Source: Candidatus Tiamatella incendiivivens (GTDB lineage: Archaea; Thermoproteota; Thermoprotei_A; Sulfolobales; Acidilobaceae). From it: a stretch of DNA of 60,241 nucleotides. The position numbers were made by a program, and so were the translations under genes. Of the stretch, positions 39,663 through 56,831 are shown piece by piece. The notes below the pieces were generated by a model. That model worked only from the letters and a program-made list of their open reading frames with translations, did no database searches and had not been told where the DNA came from. Numbering within the stretch: the stretch's first letter is position 1; each line of letters starts with the position of its first letter. Location: contig WALW01000023.1 of assembly GCA_015522635.1 (NCBI GenBank), positions 1 through 60,241 of the forward strand, read 5' to 3'.

Positions 39663-40724
39663 CGGTTTTCTCGCAACCACTACACCTCTAACTAACCGCC
39701 TATGAACATGCATTTCAAAATACCCAGCTACCTCGAATCCAACTTCCTCAGCTAATTGCCTTGGTTTAACCTCAATGGGTGAAGCAAAGACAAGGTATCC
39801 GCCGGGAGCTATCACTCTCAGTGCCTCGGCAAGAAACTCTTTAACAATAATCCTCCTAGAAACTCCTCCTGTAGAAGTAGTTCTCCCATATGGCGGATCA
39901 GTTGCTATTCTCTCTATAGACTCGCTTCTCAGCGGAAGATCGCTGGAATTACCATAATAGAAAATGGGGGAAGAATGCTTGGATAGATAAGCATTGAGAT
40001 TAGTGACTGCCCCTTTCATCATTTGGTAATCTATATCGCCGCAGATAACTGGGTCATATCCTATAAGTCCTGCTTCTATTGCGAAACCTCCTACACCGCA
40101 GAATGGATCAATATAGGAAAGATTCTTCCTGGGACGGGACAAGTTGACGATTACCCTGGATAGTATTGGGTCAAGTGTTCCCGGCCTGAATACCGGCCTT
40201 CTCCTTGGAAGCCTATTCAAGAATCCAGTATAGTCTTTCTTTGCTATCCTGATACCAATATGAATAAATCCAGGGTAATGGTCTATCTTCAATATACTTC
40301 CTTCCTTAGAGAACTTAGACTCTTTATTAGCTAATACCACCATTCTAATTATCTCAATCGAATGAGGGTTCCACTCTGGTTTCAAGTGTTTCTCATATAC
40401 TATCCAGTATTCGCCATTGGGAAGCTTGTTTTTAGTTATGTAATCCCTGAAAAGCTTAGGGTCCTCTGGAGCAGTTATCACACTGTATCCTGCTTCCCTT
40501 ATGTAACCGCTTTCATCAACGATATGCTTTATGACGTCGGGAGGAGTATCAGTGTCTATTATTGCTAGGGATTCCAATCTATATAGTAAGCTTGTCTCTC
40601 CCCCCCAAGACTCTAGTAGAGAGGTAAGTTCTCCGTAGGGGAGCGTGGGATGCTCTCCTGACAATAGAGCATAATATAATGTATATTTAGGTGTATATAG
40701 TCCTTGCAAGGTCTTCCGCTTCAC
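39654..40724 (-). CDS. tRNA guanosine-10 N2-methyltransferase (Trm11/TrmG10 type)
   Basis: A 356-residue enzyme with an N-terminal THUMP-containing region and a C-terminal Rossmann methyltransferase. SAM-binding block YIDPFCGVGGFAIEAGLIGYD (about 208-228), ICGDID, and the N-methyltransferase motif ATDPPYGRTTS, as in archaeal Trm-G10 making m2G or m2,2G at position 10. A GTG start at 40724 overlaps the end of the SIS-domain gene by 38 bases; TTG 40709 is an alternative. Confidence 0.87.
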   Translation of the reverse strand: MKRKTLQGLYTPKYTLYYALLSGEHPTLPYGELTSLLESWGGETSLLYRLESLAIIDTDTPPDVIKHIVDESGYIREAGYSVITAPEDPKLFRDYITKNKLPNGEYWIVYEKHLKPEWNPHSIEIIRMVVLANKESKFSKEGSILKIDHYPGFIHIGIRIAKKDYTGFLNRLPRRRPVFRPGTLDPILSRVIVNLSRPRKNLSYIDPFCGVGGFAIEAGLIGYDPVICGDIDYQMMKGAVTNLNAYLSKHSSPIFYYGNSSDLPLRSESIERIATDPPYGRTTSTGGVSRRIIVKEFLAEALRVIAPGGYLVFASPIEVKPRQLAEEVGFEVAGYFEMHVHRRLVRGVVVARKPLQ

Positions 40725-41649
40725 TCCTCGTCATCCGGTAGTATGGTTCTTTTAACCCTTCTTTACTAATGTATTCTGCAATTAGTCTAGTTATTGATTG
40801 GATGGTGCAAATCAGTATACCAGCAGTATTCCCGGTTTCAGGTTCAATTAGATCTTCTAGGAAGAGAGGGTTAGACTTTTTCATAAGAACAGACAGGAAT
40901 TTTCTAGGAAGCTTGTCTCTCGGGTATAATATAACGGGGGTTTCATAATCCTTAAGGCTGAATACAGTTGCATGCATAAACTGTTCGAGGCGTTCAGATC
41001 TCGATGGCCACCCTAGATCCTCGTGTGCTTTGAGCATTGCGAAATATGCTACGCCATAACTCCATGTCTCACCTATAAAGAAAGGCGTGGCCATAGTAAT
41101 ATTCTTTGGACGGCATTGCGAATTGTAAGCAGGTTTCTCATCAACTCCTAGGAGGCCTGCTATTGCTGCAGTCATACTAACATAACTTCCGAAACCGCTC
41201 CCCAGAATGTAGGATGGGTGAACGACTTCTACTATTTTGTCACCCAACTTGGCCAATGGGGATTCCAAGTTACCTGTGACAACAATTATCTTCGAACCAT
41301 TGTGCTTGTGAATAGATACTGAGTTAACTAGACTTCTAGTCTTCCCTCCTAGGGAGACTGCTATAACAGTAATTCCACTACCCTTAGGGTAATTGGATAA
41401 TTCTCTTGGATCTACCGTCTCACCTTCGTATCCTGATAATGCTACTCCGGTTAACGATGCAGCATAACTGTCTCCGGCGCCAGAAACAAGTATTCTCCTA
41501 CCATCTAATACGCTTTCCAAGTTGTCAAGCTGTCTAGAATAAATCACCTGGTATAACTCGGCTTCCTCTTTTAATTTCTCAGCAAACTCCGTCAATATAG
41601 GGTCCCAACTTGAATATACTGAGTAAGCTTGGTTTTTAGATTTGAGCAT
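40687..41649 (-). CDS. SIS-domain sugar-phosphate isomerase-like protein
   Basis: A 320-residue protein with two SIS domains, similar to the isomerase half of glucosamine-6-phosphate synthase and to archaeal sugar isomerases. The phosphosugar-binding pattern is ILVSGAGDSYAASLTG (about 53-68), and the Ser/Thr block VIAVSLGGKTRSL. There is no glutaminase domain. Probably acts on a hexose- or hexosamine-phosphate, possibly linked to glycan synthesis, but the substrate is unknown. Start ATG 41649 lies six bases after the C/D-box RNA on the same strand. Confidence 0.8.
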   Translation of the reverse strand: MLKSKNQAYSVYSSWDPILTEFAEKLKEEAELYQVIYSRQLDNLESVLDGRRILVSGAGDSYAASLTGVALSGYEGETVDPRELSNYPKGSGITVIAVSLGGKTRSLVNSVSIHKHNGSKIIVVTGNLESPLAKLGDKIVEVVHPSYILGSGFGSYVSMTAAIAGLLGVDEKPAYNSQCRPKNITMATPFFIGETWSYGVAYFAMLKAHEDLGWPSRSERLEQFMHATVFSLKDYETPVILYPRDKLPRKFLSVLMKKSNPLFLEDLIEPETGNTAGILICTIQSITRLIAEYISKEGLKEPYYRMTRSEAEDLARTIYT

Positions 41650-41655
41650 CCTTCG

Positions 41656-41723
41656 GGGGCTCTGCTGGACTAGGAGTCTTCACAGTTTCAGACTCTGTTC
41701 CGGGTTCACATCATCACAGCCCC
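41656..41723 (-). ncRNA. Archaeal C/D-box guide RNA upstream of the SIS gene
   Basis: Read on the minus strand: perfect C box GTGATGA (41717-41711), perfect D' box CTGA (41691-41688), C' box GTGAAGA (41683-41677), and D box CAGA (41664-41661, one base off CTGA). The ends form a stem, GGGGC (41723-41719) with GCCCC (41660-41656). D'-to-C' spacing is four bases and the D guide is 12 bases (CTCCTAGTCCAG). The D' guide region is 19 bases, longer than usual. The RNA ends seven bases before the SIS-domain start codon, so it may be cut from the leader of that message. Confidence 0.7.
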
Positions 41724-49116: not shown

Positions 49117-50139
49117 GTGGGAAAGGCATTGAAGAGGATTGCAATCACAGTAATGATACTGGCAGTAATGATGGTAATTCCACTCACATTTCCAGCTTAC
49201 TCCGGAAACCAGACGGCATACACTATTCTCTTCGCTTTCATCCCCGAGAAACCTTCCTCAACAGGCTTCACAATGGGAGCTCCCAGATGGATCCCTGGTA
49301 ACGGTCAGGAAGCTGAGGTAATGCATGAGTTAGATACTCCATATTACAGCTGTGAAATGGTTAAATGGAGCATCAAAAACACCATTGAACGATACAAGGA
49401 AGCCCCGCTATCCACGGAGTCTACCAGCCTCTTCAATTACACAAATCCAATAGTAGTAGGCTTCATTCGGAATAACATAACCAAACTCGGCTTGAACGGT
49501 CTCTCCAACAAAGATAAAATAAGCAAGATAGCAGACTACGTCTACAAGCACTTTAAGTACCAAGTAGGTCAATACCCTCACTATCCATGGGAGACCATAG
49601 AACTAAGGCACGGAGACTGTGATGATCTTGCAATACTTGTAGTCACTATAGCCAGAGCGTATCGTGTACCCTCTGCGGTAGCAACCGGTCTTCTAATAAT
49701 ACCTGGGCTCGAATCCAGCATCAAAGCTGGAGGCATAAACTACACAATCAGAGGAGTAGCGGGTCATGCATGGATAATATATGAAAACGATAAAGGCGAA
49801 CCGGTTGTAATGGATAGACTGGTACCTTTGAATGCGGTCCCGGATGAAAGGAGGATAGTACTTGACTATCCCGTCAACGGCTACAGGTATGTGAACCAGA
49901 CGAGGAGTGAGGTAATGCAGCAAGAGGGGAAGGCGTATATAATGCTATACAATGGTAATACATGCCCCTCTCCGCAGGAACTAGAGAATCCCACTCAAAC
50001 AACAAGTGAGTCAGCTCCGCAGATAAGCATAAGTGACAGGCAAGCTGTGATAGCTCTAGGCTTACTCGGTTGGATACTAGTAACACTTGCCTATTACATA
50101 TACTCAAGTGTAACAAAACCATATTGGAGTAGGTGGTGA
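49117..50139 (+). CDS. Membrane-anchored transglutaminase-like protein
   Basis: A 340-residue protein with an N-terminal signal or anchor helix (residues about 7-27) and a C-terminal membrane helix (LGLLGWILVTLAYYIYS). Between them is a transglutaminase-like papain-fold domain with the Cys in LRHGDCDDLA (about 168), His in AGHAWIIY (about 215) and Asp in VVMDRLVP. It is presumably extracytoplasmic and could be a peptidase or crosslinking enzyme. The stop codon TGA is immediately followed in the same reading frame by the RNase Z coding region. Confidence 0.82.
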   Translation: MGKALKRIAITVMILAVMMVIPLTFPAYSGNQTAYTILFAFIPEKPSSTGFTMGAPRWIPGNGQEAEVMHELDTPYYSCEMVKWSIKNTIERYKEAPLSTESTSLFNYTNPIVVGFIRNNITKLGLNGLSNKDKISKIADYVYKHFKYQVGQYPHYPWETIELRHGDCDDLAILVVTIARAYRVPSAVATGLLIIPGLESSIKAGGINYTIRGVAGHAWIIYENDKGEPVVMDRLVPLNAVPDERRIVLDYPVNGYRYVNQTRSEVMQQEGKAYIMLYNGNTCPSPQELENPTQTTSESAPQISISDRQAVIALGLLGWILVTLAYYIYSSVTKPYWSRW

Positions 50140-50142
50140 ATA

Positions 50143-51051
50143 ATTCACATATTCAAAGCCAAACTTCTAGGGACAAGCGCTGCCATCCCCCTTCCAGACC
50201 ACATGCTACCTGCCCTTCACGTTAAGGGAGTAACAGGCGAGAGCATACTCATAGATGCTGGAGAAGGAACACAACTTCAGCTAAATAAGGCTAATATAAG
50301 CATAAACAGGATAAATATAATACTAATCACACACATGCACGGAGATCATATCTTCGGGTTACCAGGCCTACTGGAAAACATGAGTTTAACCGGTAGAACT
50401 AAGGATCTCCTAATAATAGGCCCCAGCGGTCTGGTGGACTATATAGCTGAATCGTTTAAGGCAACATATTTCTACCCTAGATATAGGCTATACTATGGGG
50501 AGATAAGCGGCTGGGGGTCATACAAGTACGGCTCCATAACCATAGAATGGTTCCCAGTGTGCCACACAATAGAAACCTATGGATATAAGCTGATATACCA
50601 TAAGAGGCCTAGGCTCAGTAAGGAAAAACTAGGTCAGGTAGGACTCCTGAATAGTCCGCTGACAAGTAAATTACTCCAGGAAGGCGAAGTCGTTGTTTCC
50701 GGGAGAAAAGTAAGGCTGGAGGATGTCTTAGCTGAACCTGCGAAAAAGTATTGCCTAGCATACACGGGAGACACAGCGCCATGCGCCCGCATCATTGAAG
50801 AGGTTAAGGGATGCGACATACTGTTCCACGAGGCCACATTCGCGTCAGATCACAGGTATGAAGCCTGGGAATACGGCCATAGCACGGCAATGGATGCAGC
50901 AATAATAGCCGAGGAAGCAGGAGTAGGCAAACTAGTCCTCTACCACAACAGTACTAGGTATAAGGAGAATTATAACATACTCGAAGAGGAGGCTAGGGAT
51001 ATCTTCCCTAATGCAGAACTAGGAGTAGATTTGGGGGAATATGTTATATAA
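50143..51051 (+). CDS. rnz: RNase Z (tRNA 3' endonuclease) with apparent non-canonical start
   Basis: Beta-lactamase-fold endonuclease that removes tRNA 3' trailers. Zinc motif THMHGDHIFGLPGLLE, AYTGDTAPC, HEATF and EYGHSTAMDAA are all present. The conserved family N-terminus (KLLGTSAAIPLP) is encoded upstream of the first ATG (50203), and between it and the preceding in-frame TGA (50137) there is no ATG, GTG or TTG. Only ATA 50140 or ATT 50143 can start it, right after AGGTGGTGA. I therefore place the start at ATT 50143, giving about 302 residues; a shortened protein from ATG 50203 would lose the first strand. It probably forms an operon with the transglutaminase-like gene. Confidence 0.88.
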   Translation: MHIFKAKLLGTSAAIPLPDHMLPALHVKGVTGESILIDAGEGTQLQLNKANISINRINIILITHMHGDHIFGLPGLLENMSLTGRTKDLLIIGPSGLVDYIAESFKATYFYPRYRLYYGEISGWGSYKYGSITIEWFPVCHTIETYGYKLIYHKRPRLSKEKLGQVGLLNSPLTSKLLQEGEVVVSGRKVRLEDVLAEPAKKYCLAYTGDTAPCARIIEEVKGCDILFHEATFASDHRYEAWEYGHSTAMDAAIIAEEAGVGKLVLYHNSTRYKENYNILEEEARDIFPNAELGVDLGEYVI

Positions 51052-56354: not shown

Positions 56355-56360
56355 TCCATA

Positions 56361-56831
56361 GTGGAGGGAGGAGTTATACCTATACACATACTCCTCGGCC
56401 GGTATAAAACGTGGATCATAGCATCATTCCTATCCTCAGCCCTCCTAATAAGCCACGGTGTAAGGAGGGATATGGACGCGGTATTCCAAGCAGGTGACAA
56501 AACCGTTATAGTCAAGGGAAGCAGAGTAAGATACCTCCGCCCGGACCAGGATAGTGGGGAAGGATATGTGAAGGCAGTTCTCAGAGGTAAAGCATCGCAA
56601 ATGGGGGCTATCATCCAGGAGGAATATGATATTCAGAAGCCTTGCCTTAACGTTACACAGTTCAATGGAGCAGATTTTTTCACAATGGATCCACACAAAT
56701 ATAAGTCCTTCATCTACGGAGAAAGAATAGAAGATTGCGTGACAGGCTTCCTGGGAGCAGAGGTACCTGTTAACCTGATGCCTGCAGTAATCAACATCAT
56801 ACTAGACAGGAGTAAAGCTGTGGGGGGGTAG
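56361..56831 (+). CDS. trmY: TrmY-like tRNA pseudouridine-54 N1-methyltransferase
   Basis: A 156-residue protein similar to TrmY/DUF358 (COG1901), SPOUT-fold enzymes that methylate pseudouridine 54 in archaeal tRNAs. The family pattern is LSSALLISHGVRRDMD (about 24-39), then RVRYLRPDQDSG, and a C-terminal VPVNLMPAVINIILDR that matches the closing helix. It is shorter and more divergent than the Methanocaldococcus enzyme, so exact target is uncertain. GTG 56361, six bases after srp54. Confidence 0.65.
   Translation: MEGGVIPIHILLGRYKTWIIASFLSSALLISHGVRRDMDAVFQAGDKTVIVKGSRVRYLRPDQDSGEGYVKAVLRGKASQMGAIIQEEYDIQKPCLNVTQFNGADFFTMDPHKYKSFIYGERIEDCVTGFLGAEVPVNLMPAVINIILDRSKAVGG

Follow-up and report, generated by a model that had tools for sequence, protein, structure and literature searches.

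RNase Z of this genome of Candidatus Tiamatella, a hot-vent archaeon, is probably translated from a near-cognate start codon, as one case of an apparent habit of the genus in which such codons follow a well-placed Shine-Dalgarno (SD) sequence. The gene lies in the window, the whole stretch of 60,241 nucleotides that was analyzed. Comparison between species suggests that the gene is not alone: RNase Z and at least five other Tiamatella genes appear to start at AUA, AUU, ACG, or CUG behind a strong SD. NCBI places the genus in the Acidilobaceae, Thermoproteota. This genome (G000) was compared with its sister, the nearest genome available, another Candidatus Tiamatella species (G002; MAG WALV01, contig WALV01000035.1) whose RNase Z protein is 82% identical. 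Both are metagenome assemblies. The features of the window and the genes discussed below are collected in Table 1.

Table 1. Features at the RNase Z junction and Tiamatella genes lacking a canonical start in at least one species. Start codons of the near-cognate genes are predictions; SD spacing is in nucleotides.
Feature	Coordinates	Strand	Codon	SD spacing	Remarks
Transglutaminase-like gene, 5' of RNase Z	49117..50139	+	GTG		ORF; Pfam PF01841 3.1e-10; synteny in sister species
Putative SD of RNase Z, AGGTG (sister AGGTGAT)	50131..50135	+			within end of upstream gene; last G 7 nt before ATT 50143
Codon overlapping the stop	50136..50138	+	GTG (sister ATG)		-1 frame relative to RNase Z; judged not a start, as frame not conserved
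Second-best RNase Z start candidate	50140..50142	+	ATA (sister ACT)	4
Best RNase Z start candidate	50143..50145	+	ATT (sister ATA)	7 in both species
RNase Z (tRNA 3' endonuclease)	50143..51051	+	ATT (sister ATA)	7	TIGR02651 above cut-off; single copy found in genome
First canonical in-frame ATG of RNase Z	50203..50205	+	ATG		rejected as start: conserved LGTSAAIP strand would go
Putative SD of TrmY-like gene, GGAGG	56363..56367	+			second near-cognate gene in window
TrmY-like SPOUT RNA methyltransferase	56376..56831	+	ATA	6	PF04013 4.6e-5, just under cut-off; locus 56355-56831
LutB-like LUD/ferredoxin protein			ATA/ATA	7 in both species	SD GAGGTGA
UPF0102/NucS-like protein			CTG/CTG/CTG in three species	7 in G000/sister pair	SD AGGTGAT
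NusA-like KH protein			ACG in three species		preceding codon ATA in G000, ATG in G002, GCG in G001
497-aa protein			ATG in G000, ACG in sister	7 in both species	SD GGAGG
ABC exporter (L119)	G000:C4:1745-3512				canonical start absent over 48 codons (66 in sister)

The frame from 50140 to 51051 has 303 open codons and, by family membership, encodes RNase Z, the tRNA 3'-end endonuclease. NCBIfam model TIGR02651 matches the frame from residue 8 with 297.9 bits (curated cut-off, 292.95), and the HxHxDH motif is present in the translation as THMHGDH. The alignment with solved RNase Z chains starts at residue 9 of this frame, and the LLGTSAAIP block that begins at 50164 pairs with residue 5-6 onward of the structures. 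The only other match to RNase Z in this genome is a metallo-beta-lactamase-fold sequence (G000:C14, 31%). The TGA of the transglutaminase-like gene (50137-50139) immediately precedes the frame, and the in-frame codons that follow it read ATA ATT CAC ATA TTC AAA GCC AAA CTT CTA GGG ACA AGC ... CAC ATG, the last codon being the ATG at 50203. Reading back from this ATG to the TGA, there is no in-frame ATG, GTG, or TTG. The gene thus has a conserved N-terminal coding sequence with no canonical codon at or upstream of it. The sequence-only reading had described both this gap and the conserved RNase Z N terminus inside it; the gap proved exact when the codons were reread, and TIGR02651, relatives, and solved structures all align there. 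The RNase Z of a third congener (G001:C258; L112) is only 34% identical, starts at TTG, and has a different upstream gene, so the RNase Z of G000 and G002 may have been relocated or replaced.

The comparison of starts in a sister species, also proposed in that reading, shows that WALV01 has no canonical start here either, with the phase unchanged. The junction reads AGT AGG TGG TGA ATA ATT CAC ATA TTC AAA GCC in the window and GGC AGG TGA TGA ACT ATA CAT ATT TTC AAA GCA in the sister. Over the 21 codons from 50140 to 50202, 17 of 21 residues are conserved in the RNase Z frame, and the substitutions at codon positions one, two, and three number 2, 2, and 12, respectively, placing 12 of 16 at the third position. 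The bias persists over the 20 codons from 50143, where 11 of 14 substitutions between the window and the sister are third-position changes (binomial p 0.0007). The first changes from codon 50143 onward (ATT/ATA, CAC/CAT, and ATA/ATT) are all synonymous, and codon 50140 is ATA in one species and ACT in the other. This substitution pattern indicates translation of the stretch in the RNase Z frame, beginning at 50143 or very near it.

The position of the start was estimated from SD spacing, counted to the start codon from the final G of the SD core (in the GGTG register), with a reference set of 125 ortholog pairs that share a single canonical start. Where the SD in this set is 5 nt or longer, the modal spacing is 7 nt (58/119), and 100/119 fall between 6 and 8 nt. 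RNase Z has a near-cognate codon at a spacing of 7 in both species. Of 28,440 random internal aligned codons, 0.74% have an SD (5 nt or longer) spaced 6-8 nt away in both species, and 0.07% combine such an SD with a near-cognate codon in both. A start at ATT 50143 would leave 8 residues ahead of LGT, like family members L011, L016, and L024. We prefer AUU 50143 because of its conserved position, its spacing, and this family-typical N-terminal length, and in our judgment it is probably the start. AUA 50140 is, again by judgment, an unlikely alternative, and ATA 50149 is a possible one with a spacing of 13. Initiation at AUU or AUA, an option in the sequence-only reading, is therefore supported with a preference for the first of these codons. 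UUG is the commonest start in the canonical sample (130/250), so weak start codons are normal in Tiamatella.

The proposed mechanism is ordinary methionine initiation. A strong SD overlapping the end of the preceding gene would set the near-cognate codon, likeliest AUU 50143 (AUA in the sister), exactly in the P site, where the ordinary Met initiator tRNA would read it. The one-mismatch codon would be tolerated thanks to the strong and exactly spaced SD. The ribosome would then start at 50143 itself with Met as the first residue, and coupling to termination at TGA 50137, where the upstream gene ends, may assist. An initiator tRNA with an altered anticodon was ruled out by the CAU anticodon loop found in all three congeners. 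A match to GGGCTTATAACCC in G002 C34 was considered as an initiator tRNA, but ARAGORN does not call it a tRNA and we take it as a chance match. Loss or an obvious change of aIF1 was ruled out as a cause, because Tiamatella has an aIF1 of ordinary sequence that resembles those of relatives. With an ordinary initiator tRNA and an ordinary aIF1, the analysis found no special decoder and no cause of relaxed selection. No RNA hairpin shared by the two species was found at the RNase Z start (z of -0.65 and +1.56). The initiator tRNA-Met gene has an apparent T-loop intron in G000 (L306, C19 near 261829) and G001 (L308, C243 near 5581) that is absent in G002 (L307).

Five other explanations for the missing RNase Z start were weighed. 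Translation could begin at GTG 50136 (ATG in the sister), which overlaps the TGA in the typical NTGA arrangement in both species, and reach the RNase Z frame by a programmed +1 frameshift. We consider this very unlikely. The frame of the overlapping (A/G)TG keeps only 9 of 22 residues, with 13, 2, and 2 substitutions at the three codon positions, so its changes fall mainly at position one, whereas conservation in the RNase Z frame begins at the second codon past the stop. The substitution pattern thus argues against an initial frame starting at 50136. No slippery or shift site common to the two species was seen, the SD overlaps GTG 50136 instead of preceding it, and no overlapping start of this kind occurs in the LutB-like and TrmY-like genes. 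The next explanation places the protein start at ATG 50203 and leaves the upstream stretch, KLLGTSAAIPLPDH included, untranslated. This ATG is conserved in both species (DHMLPALHVK), but a protein starting there would lack the first strand and the LGTSAAIP block present in relatives and in solved structures. The third-position bias over the 20 codons upstream is likewise evidence against it, and we regard this start, which the sequence-only reading had allowed as an outcome, as highly improbable.

Readthrough of TGA 50137 would produce a transglutaminase-like/RNase Z fusion protein, an option raised earlier and made conceivable by the adjacency of the two genes in the same frame. The sister has two consecutive in-frame TGA codons at this point, which argues against readthrough, and the upstream frame is merely the C terminus of the transglutaminase-like protein, ending in a hydrophobic helix and a short tail. 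RNase Z relatives stand alone, and an SD lies at the gene junction, leaving readthrough with scarcely any probability. A short mRNA intron concealing an upstream canonical start is just as remote. Some introns are spliced in Thermoproteota, and this genome apparently has one in its initiator tRNA gene; against this, the preceding DNA is the conserved coding region of another gene, the SD and its spacing suit an unspliced start, and a separate intron would be needed for each of six genes. Least probable is a sequencing or assembly error: one A fewer in GTGAATAATT would create a canonical GTG start overlapping the stop, but the independently assembled sister species shows the same phase and likewise no start codon, which contradicts a local error.

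Near-cognate initiation at RNase Z would be one of several such cases. An ortholog survey set 737 kb of this genome against 1,071 kb of the sister, both sampled as stretches, and gave 359 pairs after antisense and overlapping ORFs were removed; looser versions of the filter flagged upstream regulatory conservation and antisense ORFs. Pairs were flagged when, in one or both species, coding-type conservation extended at least 15 codons upstream of the first canonical start. Nine of 359 pairs were flagged, two were removed by hand as artefacts, and seven genuine genes remain. One artefact, C19:103750, appears to be an ORF antisense to a ferredoxin-like gene. The other, G000:C10:82263, is a frame-disrupted gene. 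This locus (G000:C10:82263-82926, minus strand; L174/L175) carries a VEPVQGE motif and is probably an aminotransferase, open in the sister but interrupted in G000 by a stop or frame change. The survey extends the sequence-only reading, which had treated RNase Z as a single case.

Six of the seven genuine genes have a near-cognate codon (ATA, ATT, ACG, or CTG) at the position defined by the SD. In G001, the UPF0102 gene keeps its CTG at an SD spacing of 6 and has an additional GTG inside the SD. The G001 NusA-like gene reads AGGTGGTGA GCG ACG GTT, and the ACG at a spacing of 7 is common to all three species. The TrmY-like gene of the sister has ATA at the same place as the window and no canonical codon for 36 codons. 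The G001 TrmY-like gene also lacks a canonical start and has GTT at the position, which is not a single-mismatch near-cognate codon. GTT is perhaps the start, an odd choice for which sigR offers a precedent. The seventh gene, the ABC exporter, overlaps the end of another ABC exporter gene that lies upstream of it, and a near-cognate codon is absent from its SD position.

A control of 197 ortholog pairs from other genera contained no gene in which coding-type conservation ran for 15 codons without a canonical start, compared to 7/359 in Tiamatella (Fisher p 0.046); the control is small and comes from loci around the same genes that were not randomly chosen, so specificity to Tiamatella is suggested, not shown. 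In other genera, the starts of RNase Z, LutB, and the NusA-like gene are canonical wherever they are readable. Among the TrmY-like genes, one relative (L225) has no canonical codon within the stretch inspected. On balance we favor the view that start-codon selection is relaxed in Tiamatella for about 2% of genes, essential RNA-processing genes included, perhaps with GUU in one species.

Comparable starts are documented for a few bacterial genes. The passages on infC in PMC5472188 give its start as AUU in Escherichia coli and AUC in Streptomyces and describe autoregulation by IF3. Like the Tiamatella RNase Z, infC is an essential gene related to RNA or translation whose start differs from AUG at the third position, but it is a bacterial gene with IF3 discrimination and proven regulation, whereas the Tiamatella start is predicted from sequence comparison and its regulation would be hypothetical. 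To our knowledge archaea have no IF3, and aIF1 has the analogous role. The sigR gene of Streptomyces starts at GTC, or GTT in two species, behind the conserved extended ribosome-binding site AGGAGGTG (PMC5472188). It resembles the Tiamatella genes in having a genus-conserved non-canonical start behind an extended SD, with a codon that varies between species, and it is usually misannotated; it is one experimentally demonstrated bacterial gene, whereas several genes of one archaeal genus are candidates here. These starts may serve regulation, as with IF3 for bacterial infC and with sigR, or may reflect drift under relaxed start selection.

A 2020 review of archaeal initiation gives AUG, GUG, and UUG as the start codons of all mRNA types, and AUU and near-cognate starts are absent from its text (PMC7531240). 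The Tiamatella genes share the anti-SD (AUCACCUCCU) and the SD-led geometry that it describes but differ in their near-cognate candidate codons (PMC7531240). Among the papers listed by our searches of the open-licence full-text literature, those on AUA or AUU start codons describe bacterial, organellar, and unrelated cases and no archaeal one, which is weak evidence of absence. The initiators in NCBI translation table 11 include CTG, ATT, ATC, and ATA but not ACG, and gene callers in practice accept only ATG, GTG, and TTG. Genes with near-cognate starts would therefore be truncated or shifted in annotation. The near-cognate reading, if true, would show near-cognate initiation occurring naturally across an archaeal genus, and it yields a simple gene-by-gene prediction open to proteomics. 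If AUA, AUU, ACG, and CUG do start essential genes, Tiamatella would offer a natural system for how aIF1/aIF1A and the SD interaction set start-codon fidelity, using a start-selection machinery (aIF1/aIF1A) that archaea share with eukaryotes.

An Rfam scan of the window gave zero hits. Upstream of the ORF at 40687-41679, at about 41650-41720 on the minus strand, a block conserved between the species (GTGATGA...CTGA...GTGAAGA), likewise with no Rfam match, is a possible C/D-box sRNA.
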